26,598 nucleotides of DNA. Origin: a virus. The stretch lies in the IMG/VR virus record IMGVR_UViG_3300021142_000156, positions 1-26,598 of that record. One strand, 5' to 3'. Of the stretch, positions 1,854-24,688 are shown one piece after another. Position numbers and translations under genes: made by a program. The number at the start of each line of letters is the position of its first letter. Position 1 is the first letter of the stretch. The notes beneath the pieces were generated by a model. The model was not told the DNA's origin. It was given only the letters and a program-made list of their open reading frames with translations, and ran no database searches.

Positions 1854-3458
1854 ATGTTAATCCCAACAGAAGCGGTTGAAAGAGACTTTTTTTTCGAGGA
1901 CTTGATAAGAAAATGCACGGCTTCGCAACATGACAGGTCGCAGGATTACGCTCTGTTGAGGCATTATTTCCTTCACGGCAGGTCGCCAGAGCAGGCTGAA
2001 ACCCCGTACAACAAGATTTTCTCGCACATTGATACGCTTACCGCGTTTCTTTTTGCGTCTGAAACAACAAAGTTCTCAATCCATATCCAGGAGGGTGAGA
2101 ATGAGATTGAGTATCCTCGCCTAAATCCTCTCAATCGAGCAATGAACAATATGTGGCTCTCGACAAATGCCGACCAGGTGTTCTCTCAGGCGCTCACATG
2201 GTCGCTCGTTTACAACTCCATGTTTATCAAGCTTCGTGTTGACGGATCTAGCGTCACTCCGTTTACCGTTGACCCCGCCTCGTTTGGAGTTCTTCGCGAG
2301 GATATGTCCTTCACCGACCGTCAGGAGGCAATGGTTCACAGCTTCTACACAACGTATAGCCAGCTTGAGCGCGACTTGGCGAAGCACCCGCAAAAAGACG
2401 CAATACTCGCATCTGTGGTTGCCAGCCCAACATCAACACAGGAGGTTGACGGTCTGTCTCGTTTGATTATGACGGCTACAGCGCCGAATGTAACGGGCAA
2501 CGTGAATTCAGTTATGGACTTGCAATTGGCGTACACCCCGATGGTTGACGAAGAGCGCATCAGGATGCACGAGCTGTGGGTATGGGACGATGAGATTAAC
2601 GACTATCGAGTGGTGACGCGCCTCGATACCGGCACGACAATTTACGACCGCAAAAATTTCTTCCTGAAGGGCGAGAATCCGTTCATTCAGATATGCGCCA
2701 ACCCCATGTACTCATACTACTGGGGAATGTCTGAAGTCGGCGGCATGACCGGTCTGCAAAAGTGGCGCAATGAACGTGTCGAGCAGATACGCAAGCTGCT
2801 CAACCTTCAAGCCAACCCGCCCACCAGCATGACCGGCTGGCAGGGGATTATGGATGAAAAGCAGTATGCCGTATTCTCCGAAGGCTCGTTCCTGTCCACT
2901 GACTCAATGCAGGCGAAGATTGAGCGCCATGAGCCAAAGCTGCCTGCTGACTTGTTTAATGAGATTCGCGAGATTGACGCTGCTTTCGCGGAGCGTTCTG
3001 GATTGCAGAATATCTTGATGGGTAAGGGCGAGACTGGGGTTCGTTCTGGCAGCCAAACATCTACGCTGGCGAAGCTATCCAGCGCTCGTATCAAAAAGCG
3101 CGCACTTGTTGTTGAGGACGCTCTTGAAGCTATGGCTACGCTGTACCTGAAAATCATGCAAAAGTATGACCCGACAATCTATCAGGACGCTGACAAGAAT
3201 GAGTTTGTTGCTGACCAGTTTACGAGTTCTTTTGTCGTAAAAGTTGACGCTCACTCAAACAGCCCTTTGTTTGTCGAGGACGCTAACGCTCTTGCGTCTG
3301 AAATGCTGCAACTGAAAATAATCACGCGAGAACGGTTCGTGGAGATTATCTCGCCGCCTGACAAGGAGTTGATTATCAGAGAACTGAAGGTGATTGAAGC
3401 GAAAGAAAAAGAGGCACAGGAAGCGGCTCAAAAAGCAGAGCAGCAAAAAAAAGGTTGA
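1854..3458 (+). CDS. Portal protein
   Basis: This is the dodecameric ring at the capsid vertex through which DNA enters and leaves. At 534 aa it has a normal portal length. Recognisable portal-type stretches include the early helical region with HIDTLTAFLF, the wing/stem region around NPFIQICANPMYSYYWGMSEV, the stem helix around WRNERVEQIRKLLNLQANPP, and a C-terminal charged coiled coil rich in Lys, Glu and Gln (last 30 or so residues). The start at 1854 follows AAAGGAAGATAGGCG. It comes after the terminase and before the scaffold and capsid genes, the usual head-gene order. The assignment rests on family resemblance and position; there is no protease fusion. Confidence 0.9.
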   Translation: MLIPTEAVERDFFFEDLIRKCTASQHDRSQDYALLRHYFLHGRSPEQAETPYNKIFSHIDTLTAFLFASETTKFSIHIQEGENEIEYPRLNPLNRAMNNMWLSTNADQVFSQALTWSLVYNSMFIKLRVDGSSVTPFTVDPASFGVLREDMSFTDRQEAMVHSFYTTYSQLERDLAKHPQKDAILASVVASPTSTQEVDGLSRLIMTATAPNVTGNVNSVMDLQLAYTPMVDEERIRMHELWVWDDEINDYRVVTRLDTGTTIYDRKNFFLKGENPFIQICANPMYSYYWGMSEVGGMTGLQKWRNERVEQIRKLLNLQANPPTSMTGWQGIMDEKQYAVFSEGSFLSTDSMQAKIERHEPKLPADLFNEIREIDAAFAERSGLQNILMGKGETGVRSGSQTSTLAKLSSARIKKRALVVEDALEAMATLYLKIMQKYDPTIYQDADKNEFVADQFTSSFVVKVDAHSNSPLFVEDANALASEMLQLKIITRERFVEIISPPDKELIIRELKVIEAKEKEAQEAAQKAEQQKKG

Positions 3459-3546
3459 CGCAATAATTTAGATGGGTGTAGAGTCACGTTTAAGGGTGTA
3501 GCTGCTCCCTTCAAAGGTGGCTTGAATCCCTAACCGGAGGTGTACC

Positions 3547-3594
3547 ATGGCTCGCAAAGCTCGCAAGCACGCTCGTAAATCGAAGCGTAAGTAA
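3547..3594 (+). CDS. 15-residue very basic peptide (protamine-like)
   Basis: A short reading frame, MARKARKHARKSKRK, has five Lys, four Arg and one His in fifteen residues and no acidic residue. It is preceded by CCGGAGGTGTACC, one of the strongest Shine-Dalgarno sequences in the window, with seven to eight bases to the ATG, and it ends in TAA just before a hairpin at 3596-3621. It sits alone in a 225-bp gap between the portal and the next structural gene. The strong ribosome site and the biased composition argue that it is translated. The charge suggests binding to DNA or RNA, or to an acidic protein surface; this is inference. The 88 bp in front hold two GGGTGTAG copies and a weak AAGGG/CCCTT inverted repeat but no promoter I can support. 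Confidence 0.68.
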   Translation: MARKARKHARKSKRK

Positions 3595-3595
3595 C

Positions 3596-3621
3596 AATAA
3601 GTCGTCCGTCAGCGACTTATT
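3596..3621 (+). terminator. Hairpin between the basic peptide and the head genes (possible terminator)
   Basis: A perfect 9-bp inverted repeat, AATAAGTCG / CGACTTATT, has an 8-base loop. It starts two bases after the stop codon of the 15-residue peptide. There is no proper U-tract after it, so it may be a weak terminator, an RNA-stability element or a processing site that sets different expression levels for portal and capsid genes. Its base carries the same AATAAG/CTTATT arms as the strong terminator at 20927-20952. Confidence 0.5.
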
Positions 3622-6245: not shown

Positions 6246-7259
6246 ATGCCAGTCCTCGGAACAGGAATTATGCCAGCCGCAGGCGCGGTTGCCGCAGAGC
6301 TTACAGCCGTAACGCGCCGCGCATTTGTGCCTAAGTTGGTTGTCCAGACATACAACTCAACTCCGCTTTTGGCTATGCTAATGGCGAACAACCAGTCAGC
6401 ATCCGGTGGCGCGTCCAGCATCACCGTTCCTGTTCAGGGTACGAATATGGTCACGACTCAAGCATCGGATTATTCCGGTACTTTCAGTCAGCCTAACGTG
6501 CAACCAGGTATCCAGAACGCTGAATTCAACATGAAGCTGTCCATCACTCCGATTCCTTTCTTGGGAATGGAGGCGGCGACACAGGTTGATTATGCTGTTG
6601 TGCCTATCATTGAAGCGCGCATGAATGATGCCGGTAACAATATTGCGTCTTTCTGGTCGCAGGCACTGTACGGCAACACCTCAAACAATCTGCAAATGAT
6701 TGGTTTGCCTGGTGCTGTGGATGACTCGACCAACCTTGCGTCATACGGCAATATCAACCGTACCCAGAATGCTTTCTGGAAGTCTAAGGTTTACGCTGCT
6801 GGCTCAGTCAACCCGACTCGTCAGAATGTTCTGCAATACATCGTCGGTACAGCCAAGGCTGCCGGTGGTGAAATGCCTAACTTTGGTGTGTGCGGTTTTG
6901 GCACATGGGCGCTTCTTGCTCAAGACTTCCAAGGTCAGGAAACCTACATGGTTACACCTGGTTCTTCATTCGACCGTAGCGAAGATGGTGCTCGTTCTGG
7001 CTTCCGCGCATTAATGGTTGCTGGCGTGCCGATTTTTGCAGATATGAACTGTCCAGAAGGTACAATGTACTTCCTGAACAGCAATTACCTGAATATGTAT
7101 ATCCATGAGCAGGGCGCTTTCGCCTTCACTGGCTTTGAAAGTACGCTGTCAAACTGGCAGTTGGGTTATGTTGGCGCTATCGTCAATATCGCTGAACTTG
7201 TGTTGACTAAACCATCTGCTTGTGCGAGAGTTGGCGGATTCAACAGCGTTTCAATCTAA
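6246..7259 (+). CDS. Major capsid protein
   Basis: This is the shell protein, expected to have an HK97-type fold. At 337 aa it has the right length. Segments fit this fold: an N-terminal arm ending near FVPKLVVQTYNSTPLLAML, an E-loop-like beta section (SITVPVQGTNMVTT), a long spine-helix region around VDYAVVPIIEARMNDAGNNIASFWSQALYG, and a C-terminal beta section with GVPIFADMNCPEGTMYFLN. It starts at 6246 behind TTCAGGAGTTTTACC. Its place after a scaffold-like gene and before a connector-type gene series supports the call. No decoration or protease domain is fused to it. Confidence 0.88.
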   Translation: MPVLGTGIMPAAGAVAAELTAVTRRAFVPKLVVQTYNSTPLLAMLMANNQSASGGASSITVPVQGTNMVTTQASDYSGTFSQPNVQPGIQNAEFNMKLSITPIPFLGMEAATQVDYAVVPIIEARMNDAGNNIASFWSQALYGNTSNNLQMIGLPGAVDDSTNLASYGNINRTQNAFWKSKVYAAGSVNPTRQNVLQYIVGTAKAAGGEMPNFGVCGFGTWALLAQDFQGQETYMVTPGSSFDRSEDGARSGFRALMVAGVPIFADMNCPEGTMYFLNSNYLNMYIHEQGAFAFTGFESTLSNWQLGYVGAIVNIAELVLTKPSACARVGGFNSVSI

Positions 7260-23531: not shown

Positions 23532-23954
23532 TTAAAATTCCTCTCTGATTGAAATTGTCACGCAGGGCGTGTCGCTGTAATACTTCCGCATTGATACGCT
23601 GATTATCTGTGAGTCGTCTTTGTAGCACACCTCGTTAAGCGCGTCCTCAACACTCTTGAGCATATTCGATAAGTCCGGTTTTTTGGTGTGCCTCATCATG
23701 CCGGACAGCATTTCCGCCTTCGCCTTCTTGGATGCGCTCTTGGGTATCGGCATAAAGAACAGCAGGGACAGTCTTAACGGTGATTCTAGCGGTTCTCTGC
23801 CATTCATCGCCTCTTTACCTGCCTGCATTACAATGTCCTCGTAATTGCGCGTTTTGGCAGGCGTATAAGCCCTTGCGAATCCTCCGCGTGTCGTTACTCT
23901 AGCTCTTCCCTTTGGTACGGGCACACCTTCAACCGTAAACCCAATTTTAATCAT
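23532..23954 (-). CDS. rusA: RusA-family Holliday junction resolvase
   Basis: RusA resolves four-way junctions and branched DNA made during recombination and packaging. The 140-aa frame begins at ATG 23954, behind AAAGGGGTGAATCG, overlapping the methyltransferase stop (ATGA); a longer frame upstream is not needed. The typical start, GFTVEGVPVPKGRARVTTRG, and the active-site block KKPDLSNMLKSVEDALN (residues 91-107) followed by YKDDSQI (111-117) are present. E. coli RusA uses Asp70, Asp72 and Asp91. Here D94 and D113/D114 stand for the first and third, while the second is Ser96, which is noted below. Length and neighbours (ATPase, methyltransferase) fit. Confidence 0.88.
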   Translation of the reverse strand: MIKIGFTVEGVPVPKGRARVTTRGGFARAYTPAKTRNYEDIVMQAGKEAMNGREPLESPLRLSLLFFMPIPKSASKKAKAEMLSGMMRHTKKPDLSNMLKSVEDALNEVCYKDDSQIISVSMRKYYSDTPCVTISIREEF

Positions 23955-24688
23955 CGATTCACCCCTTTGCACAGTTGATAAATTGCTCCCGCTGCCATTG
24001 CAGGAACCCATCCATTGCCAGTGGCTTTGAGTCCGTCCATCCCTCTGGCCACATCATCAGAATCTCTTGGCATCGCGGCGTAGTCATCCGCTGGTAGAGC
24101 CGCATCAATTGCTCTTGTAAATTGCCGTCTGCGTGATTTTTTCGTATCAATGCAAGCGGGTTGCGGAATGTCCAGGCTTTCCAAGATTGCGCTGTCGGTG
24201 TAAGCAAGTAGGAAAATCCGCGCTCGATGGTGTGCCGCTCCAATGGTCGAAGCTCGAAACACTCCCCACCGGACATCAAACCCCATTCCGGCCAAATCTC
24301 TAAGGACTGTTCCAAGTCCTCGAACAGTGAGCATTGGGCTGTTTTCCACAACAACGAGTCTCGGTCCAACTTCGCAAATGACTCGTTTTTGCTCGCTCCA
24401 CAATCCTGATCTAGCACCGTCAAGACCCTTGCCTTTCCCGCACTGGCTAATGTCTTGGCACGGGAAGCCGCCGCTGATAACGTCAACATGTCCGCGCCAT
24501 GGCTTTCCGTCGAATGTCCTGATGTCATCCCAGATAGGGAATTGCTCGATAACTCCGTCTCGCTGTCGGTCAAGAAGGATTCTTCTCGCTCCGGCATCAA
24601 TTTCAACAGCGCAGACGGTGCGCCATCCAAGCAATCCTGCGGCCAACACGCTACCGCCCCCCCCTGCAAAAAGTGCCAGCTCATTCAT
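23951..24688 (-). CDS. C5-cytosine DNA methyltransferase
   Basis: The enzyme transfers a methyl group from S-adenosylmethionine to C5 of cytosine in a target site. In order: motif I FAGGGG (7-12), CAVEID (26-31), motif IV GGFPCQDIS with catalytic Cys77, motif VI as VVVENSP (112-118, ENS instead of ENV), motif VIII-like GAAHHRARIF (150-159) and motif X-like GNGWVPAM (224-231). Only about 60 residues separate VIII and X, so the target-recognition domain is very small. At 245 aa it is short for the family but has all core motifs. No restriction enzyme is next to it, so it is an orphan, probably for protection against host nucleases. The start at 24688 follows GGAGGGAAA and overlaps the previous stop by ATGA. 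Confidence 0.93.
   Translation of the reverse strand: MNELALFAGGGGSVLAAGLLGWRTVCAVEIDAGARRILLDRQRDGVIEQFPIWDDIRTFDGKPWRGHVDVISGGFPCQDISQCGKGKGLDGARSGLWSEQKRVICEVGPRLVVVENSPMLTVRGLGTVLRDLAGMGFDVRWGVFRASTIGAAHHRARIFLLAYTDSAILESLDIPQPACIDTKKSRRRQFTRAIDAALPADDYAAMPRDSDDVARGMDGLKATGNGWVPAMAAGAIYQLCKGVNR
23959..24684 (-). CDS. Alternative-frame protein nested in the methyltransferase gene, 241 aa
   Basis: A second frame, +1 to the methyltransferase, is open for 241 codons from ATG 24684 almost to the methyltransferase end. Its product is Trp, Ser and Leu rich and shows LDRDSLLWKTAQCSLFEDL (107-125), WPEWGLMSGGECF (131-143), LLTPTA (160-165) and MMWPEGWTDSKPLA (210-223). From memory, proteins with this same pattern (WKT.QCSLF...WP.WG.M..GEC... 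TPTA ... GWT) are annotated in other phages, so the frame recurs and is not a one-off. The GGAGG (24697-24693) is eight bases from this ATG and only four from the methyltransferase ATG. It may be a real overlapping gene, or a by-product of methyltransferase conservation. Confidence 0.45.
   Translation of the reverse strand: MSWHFLQGGAVACWPQDCLDGAPSALLKLMPEREESFLTDSETELSSNSLSGMTSGHSTESHGADMLTLSAAASRAKTLASAGKARVLTVLDQDCGASKNESFAKLDRDSLLWKTAQCSLFEDLEQSLEIWPEWGLMSGGECFELRPLERHTIERGFSYLLTPTAQSWKAWTFRNPLALIRKNHADGNLQEQLMRLYQRMTTPRCQEILMMWPEGWTDSKPLAMDGFLQWQREQFINCAKG

Follow-up and report, generated by a model that had tools for sequence, protein, structure and literature searches.

The general view is that tailed phages use motor force, metal ions and polyamines to package their DNA, and not dedicated condensing proteins. 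Phage phiX174 has a very small basic head-module protein, J, of 38 residues. The homologue of J in Microviridae, VP8, lies in the capsid interior (PMC11945456), and baculovirus P6.9, a small basic protein of 50 residues, condenses dsDNA for packaging (PMC6669607). On the side of RNA, the gene 32 messenger of T4 and RB69 carries a pseudoknot of ~28 nt 5′ of its ribosome site (PMC535899), the Downstream-peptide RNA motif (RF01704) is a structured RNA ahead of conserved frames of 17–100 residues that show silent changes (PMC2864571), and the N proteins of lambda and P22 bind boxB RNA through a short arginine-rich segment (PMC11480772).

Here we describe a unit, present next to the head genes of many uncultured tailed phages, in which two of these kinds may meet. 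Each kind, the viral protamine and the pseudoknot operator, has precedents; as far as we have searched, what would be new is their union in a tailed-phage gene of 10–19 residues. We found no description of such a pseudoknot–peptide unit in the literature searched, a search that had most subscription journals outside its reach, and both RNA and peptide are uncatalogued in the databases searched (Rfam for the RNA), the peptide being too short for family libraries. The features lie as follows in the window, the whole 26,598-nt stretch of viral DNA that was analysed.

3455–3484, plus strand: promoter-like site TTGACG-N18-TAGAGT, with a predicted start near 3491, at the first pseudoknot base pair
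3492–3522, plus strand: H-type RNA pseudoknot of 31 nt, from compensatory changes in both stems (model match 3491–3525)
3492–3496 with 3507–3511, plus strand: pseudoknot stem S1, AAGGG pairing with CCCUU, from covariation
3500–3506 with 3516–3522, plus strand: pseudoknot stem S2, AGCUGCU pairing with GGUGGCU, from covariation
3497–3499 and 3512–3515, plus strand: pseudoknot loops L1 (UGU) and L3 (CAAA)
3536–3542, plus strand: Shine-Dalgarno sequence GGAGGTG, read from the sequence
3547–3594 (stop included), plus strand: type B basic mini-peptide gene, MARKARKHARKSKRK, from conserved position and a silent-change signature
3597–3620, plus strand: 9-bp hairpin 3′ of the mini-gene stop, loop CCGTCA, from folding

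A conserved basic mini-gene between portal and head genes

The late genes of the window run on the plus strand from a first open frame through two small genes to the portal gene (1854–3458, PHROG portal match) and, later, the MCP gene (6246–7259). The mini-gene sits in the 225-nt gap between the end of the portal gene and the next long gene, with its ATG at 3547 and a TAA stop at 3592–3594, and 9 of the 15 residues of MARKARKHARKSKRK are K or R (10 counting H). GGAGG (3536–3540) has its 3′ edge 6 nt ahead of the ATG; because GGAGGTG-N3-12-ATG is seen twice in the window against 0.3 expected, the ribosome site is not decisive by itself. The 60 nt after the stop fold with a z of −2.8. The 15-residue basic frame, its GGAGGTG, the post-stop hairpin and the placement between portal and head genes, all noticed in the first-pass annotation, are confirmed in the window. 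Two features were absent from that annotation: a covarying pseudoknot upstream and, in many relatives, a second paralogous basic peptide.

The peptides fall into two types. Type B peptides (MARKARKGRKARK-like) lie directly downstream of the pseudoknot, and the paralogous type A peptides (MYKAHKRGRKTRR-like) lie ~100 nt upstream of type B in many relatives, with their own ribosome site and no pseudoknot. Pseudoknot-led peptides have 10–19 residues and a net charge of +6 to +9. An acidic residue occurs in 1 of 53 basic peptides, and among members peptide length and residue order are degenerate while charge is retained.

Relatives were picked in IMG/VR by MCP alone, which keeps the selection independent of the feature under study. 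We took the best 80 of at least 576 and counted the 59 loci that extend 1.8 kb or more ahead of the MCP. A short basic peptide occupies the portal/head position in 53 of these 59 loci from the best 80 of at least 576, loci that are not independent, many being near-copies. The check on absence of the frame in close relatives, which the first-pass annotation had named as its refutation, was thereby run and did not refute the claim; one capsid subclade came out without the peptide. Pseudoknot and peptide occur together in 44 of the 59 (among them L197, with a GTG start), and the basic peptide occurs without pseudoknot in nine (L170, L182, L186, L202, L188, L191, L214, L224 and L225), with type A only in L188, L191, L214, L224 and L225, L188 and L225 being less basic. 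The basic peptide is missing from six loci (L181, L215, L217, L222, L223 and L229). These make up the one capsid subclade with no stand-alone basic peptide, and in its gap a TTTTGCCCC-TTTTTT stretch and a promoter-like site, TTGAC, take the place of the peptide. Where types A and B are both lost, the gap has shrunk. Elsewhere in the relatives, comparable mini-ORFs number 0.0027 per 300 nt (1.36 Mb, both strands).

Codon differences between type B genes (150 gapless pairs) are 548 silent versus 304 non-silent in frame 0; the remaining two frames of the same pairs give 48/881 and 10/919. Most arginine codons of the mini-genes are CGT or CGC. The earlier claim of a real, well-translated gene is therefore supported by conserved place, purifying selection and a predominance of CGT/CGC and AAA/AAG codons. 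A frame of only 15 codons might be put down to chance, a reading refuted by the coding signature and the conserved position and left with next to no probability. Gene callers had been expected to miss the frame, and in the two deposited relatives antisense gene calls indeed cover it: MW202825 and MW202753 have hypothetical genes annotated antisense to two tandem basic peptides (L016 7779–8039; L017 4740–5038), calls that are probably spurious given the coding signature on the opposite strand.

A short frame close upstream of other genes could also be a leader peptide or a translation-coupled switch for the next gene, with a functionless product, and a switch was among the roles first suggested. 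The amino acids, however, are under selection and kept through silent codon changes. The mini-gene is also separated from the next gene by 90–200 nt containing hairpins, the next gene varies among members, and in several relatives a TTGACA promoter-like site stands ahead of it. We found no close coupling to one downstream gene in these members, and a unit set apart from its neighbours by hairpins and promoters argues against a coupled switch, which we regard as very improbable.

On the capsid tree, loci with pseudoknot plus peptide lie on either side of the deepest (midpoint) split, and the pseudoknot label changes 5 times against 12.7 in shuffles, the changes being few and clustered; the unit thus looks old in the group, with several losses. 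At the same position, portal relatives in IMG/VR have MARRARKGRKAKRK, MARKARKHGRKARK, MAKSGRKSGRKHHRVGRKY and MARKTRRSKRKSKR, and MAKRGRKHKRK is the portal-relative peptide downstream of an inserted TPR-like gene. L006–L009 have a TPR-like gene (MTDDEAIAIGLDGNRMQ...) between portal and peptide unit, with pseudoknot and peptide retained downstream. The distant capsid relatives Mx8, Mx9, BUCT555 and a Microcystis phage yielded neither a convincing pseudoknot nor, ahead of the MCP, a convincing basic peptide. Far portal relatives (27–29% identity) have basic mini-ORFs, MSYRMKRKGKRRGR, MNIRFRRMKRGHKR and MLTKTPEAFRRGRKSRRRRR (at L014 9301, L015 5076 and L013 4982), with ribosome sites and no pseudoknot, and head modules may contain such peptides more widely. 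A GGCGGCGGCG repeat ahead of the L014 and L015 mini-ORFs was dropped because it seems to be part of the coding sequence of the gene before them.

A separate observation concerns the minus strand of the window, where a C5 cytosine methyltransferase gene (23951–24688, 245 aa, PF00145) overlaps almost fully with a 241-aa frame on the same strand (23959–24684) that starts 4 nt after the methyltransferase start. Homologues of the 241-aa frame occur in 28 phage records at 30–35% identity, and both frames stay open for ~240 codons in 4 checked records (Manatee Spring, Vibrio, Salmonella and Pseudomonas phages). The overlap resembles a conserved pair of dual-coding genes, of which mostly only the methyltransferase is annotated.

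The leader pseudoknot and its tie to the peptide

The leader RNA has the general architecture S1 (3–5 bp), UNU, S2 (7 bp), 0 or 2 nt, S1′, an A-rich loop and S2′. The core of S1 occurs as GGG/CCC, CAG/CUG, CUG/CAG, AAG/CUU, CGG/CCG and GGU/ACC; in S2 the outer pairs covary and a central tandem G-U pair is retained in most members. We counted covariation on alignments divided by junction length (A3 and A4), against shuffles that ignore relatedness. In A3, 99.0% of cells are paired and changes on both sides number 24 against 5.2 in shuffles (score 0.399 against 0.124); in A4, 94.8% are paired and the changes number 29 against 6.8 (score 0.287 against 0.080). Pairing falls to 38–66% once the stem partners are slid. 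S1 is the cleaner test, because the extraction patterns fix part of S2 and the sequences were grouped by junction length. A model built from one half of the members finds those of the second half in the correct place (E 1e-6 to 0.05), and a model search finds a single copy in the window. A generic pseudoknot finder was rejected as proof, being unspecific (unrelated leaders score too), so the argument rests on covariation. We conclude that the gene, its strand, the coding selection and the existence of the pseudoknot are shown by comparison of sequences, with a confidence far above that in the functional chain set out below.

In Rfam 15, the window searched at E up to 5 gave only a mir-7911 match, elsewhere and far below cut-off, and ten relatives at gathering score gave zero matches; a tRNA/tmRNA search of the leader found none. 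In IMG/VR, all 21 matches to a strict pattern of the first kind are followed by a basic peptide. The strict second-kind pattern gave 87 matches (45 distinct units), 86 followed by the peptide and one ending at a contig edge. Both scans together give 108 matches; 107 of these were checkable, and every one of the 107 precedes a basic peptide and no other gene. Bacterial genomes (257 billion bases) hold three strict matches to the first pattern, none with the peptide, which indicates the chance rate of that pattern; with the peptide missing downstream, the three were rejected as chance. A loose first pattern, GCTGCTCCC-N-AGTGGC, was also rejected, since among the matches listed most are chance.

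Spacers of 12–27 nt (median 22 nt) separate the 3′ end of the pseudoknot from the start codon. Against shuffled controls the ribosome site came out neither more hidden nor more open, and we saw no signal of sequestration by downstream structure. Polyamines are common inside phage heads, and a compact pseudoknot with invariant positions, ahead of the ribosome site and always of the same gene, could sense such a small molecule or an ion and turn the peptide on when it is scarce. We saw in this leader, however, no expression platform, no alternative structure that would hide the ribosome site and no Rfam kin, and consider a sensor quite improbable.

Promoter-like sites placed similarly to that of the window relative to the pseudoknot occur in L003, L005, L006, L088, L144 and L159 and, by eye, in L010. 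They stop 6–9 nt ahead of S1, which in the window and several relatives would place the 5′ end of the RNA at the pseudoknot. Taken one by one, the sites are weak (chance 0.01–0.16 per locus), and their shared position is the better argument. Most remaining members have no promoter-like site at the pseudoknot, and transcription would reach their unit from the portal gene. At the other end, most members have a hairpin after the stop (mean z −1.85), with U-tract versions in L003, L005, L006 and L010. Its loop keeps CGTCA/CGTCAG while the stem varies (window 3606–3611, L003, L005, L006, L010 and L159).

These ends bear on an alternative in which a DNA-binding head peptide leaves the pseudoknot unbound, the latter being a passive 5′ stabiliser or translation booster while the 3′ hairpin guards the other end. 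An RNA starting at the pseudoknot in promoter-bearing members, the post-stop hairpins and the strong ribosome sites are what it would predict. However, the UNU loop, the tandem G-U pair and AAA are conserved beyond the needs of pairing, which suggests recognition by something, and in the majority of members, with no promoter there, the pseudoknot would not be at a 5′ end unless the RNA is processed. We regard this alternative as a serious one, though doubtful.

Proposed function of the unit

The order of the unit is a promoter (in some members), the RNA pseudoknot, the ribosome site, a polycation of 10–19 residues and the hairpin. The reading we tentatively prefer, taken as a whole chain, is a nucleic-acid-binding head-module peptide that would limit itself through its leader pseudoknot. 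The peptide would be produced in quantity, late in infection, and would bind nucleic acid, helping in the manner of a protamine to neutralise or condense phage DNA at packaging. The pseudoknot would be its own operator: free peptide would bind it and lower further translation until DNA absorbs the excess.

Its composition, its position in the genome and the signs that it is made in quantity together point to a nucleic-acid-binding head-assembly peptide. While heads assemble it probably binds phage DNA, or else its own RNA; the simplest job would be to neutralise DNA charge, and DNA condensation, or neutralising an acidic head protein, is a possible role. That the mini-gene stands between the portal gene and the head-assembly genes in every member would also suit a structural glue for an acidic head or scaffold protein, but a peptide degenerate in length and order that keeps its charge is unlike a specific protein interface, and glue seems to us improbable.

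As for control, the one-to-one tie between pseudoknot and product is what autogenous control gives, and a second paralogous basic peptide in many members is expected if product and dosage matter. Against our preferred reading, the pseudoknot-less peptides and the one peptide-less subclade indicate that neither pseudoknot nor peptide is indispensable. Conservation is also stronger in the pseudoknot core than in the peptide; we count this against autoregulation, as it may be a sign of a host factor instead. The ribosome site, no more hidden or open than in the shuffled controls, likewise speaks against it. A full self-limiting circuit, in which a phage protamine of 10–19 residues helps pack the dsDNA of tailed phages and senses its own excess through a dedicated pseudoknot, would combine a new class of phage RNA element with a new class of gene product, and we consider it rather unlikely as stated.

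With a structured RNA at hand and terminator-like hairpins downstream, the peptide could also be a late-operon regulator, rich in arginine, that binds RNA in the manner of an antiterminator or repressor, as N does on boxB, with no action on DNA; arginine-rich segments of phage peptides do bind structured RNA (PMC11480772). Yet the post-stop hairpins vary in sequence, type A and pseudoknot-less peptides exist, and the window has no further pseudoknot copy; we judge such a regulator unlikely.

If the self-limited head-module peptide we favour is protamine-like, this conserved peptide would be an added player in DNA packing and a simple genetic handle. A large phage group can conserve genes of only 10–15 residues that escape both gene callers and protein-family libraries, and an uncatalogued RNA element is added whose role can be tested by one reporter experiment.

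Comparison with known systems

Like phiX174 J and Microviridae VP8, the product is basic, very small and encoded in a phage head module. J and VP8 come, however, from small ssDNA phages, which have neither portal nor terminase, and J exceeds the putative head peptide described here in length. P6.9 resembles it as a small basic viral protein, DNA condensation being a feature of P6.9 that is proposed here. To our knowledge, P6.9 has no pseudoknot. It differs further in being longer, regulated by phosphorylation and from a eukaryotic virus (PMC6669607). The protamine-like traits of J and P6.9 are found here: the peptides are very small, strongly basic and almost free of acidic residues, and they are encoded with head/packaging genes, in the portal/head gap of all members examined.

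With RF01704 the unit shares a conserved structured RNA before a short conserved frame with silent changes, whereas RF01704 is cyanobacterial, linked to nitrogen and of other structure, with no Rfam match here. With lambda and P22 N it shares a short arginine-rich phage peptide, structured-RNA binding being a feature of N and a candidate one here; N is larger, an antiterminator, and acts on a hairpin.

The likeness to T4 gene 32 is one of layout. Its product gp32 is a large ssDNA-binding protein as against 10–19 residues here. In T4 a longer distance separates pseudoknot and start codon, and UUAAA repeats come after the pseudoknot, whereas we found in our members no gp32-related product and no UUAAA/UAAA repeats in the spacers of 12–27 nt. 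What the two have in common is a phage leader pseudoknot 5′ of the ribosome site, here with covariation in both stems, ahead of the gene for a (here putative) nucleic-acid-binding product, and in both the pseudoknot is missing in some relatives (RB49 there; L170, L182 and L202 here) (PMC535899). In layout, T4 gp32 is the nearest model for the proposed autogenous control of the peptide.
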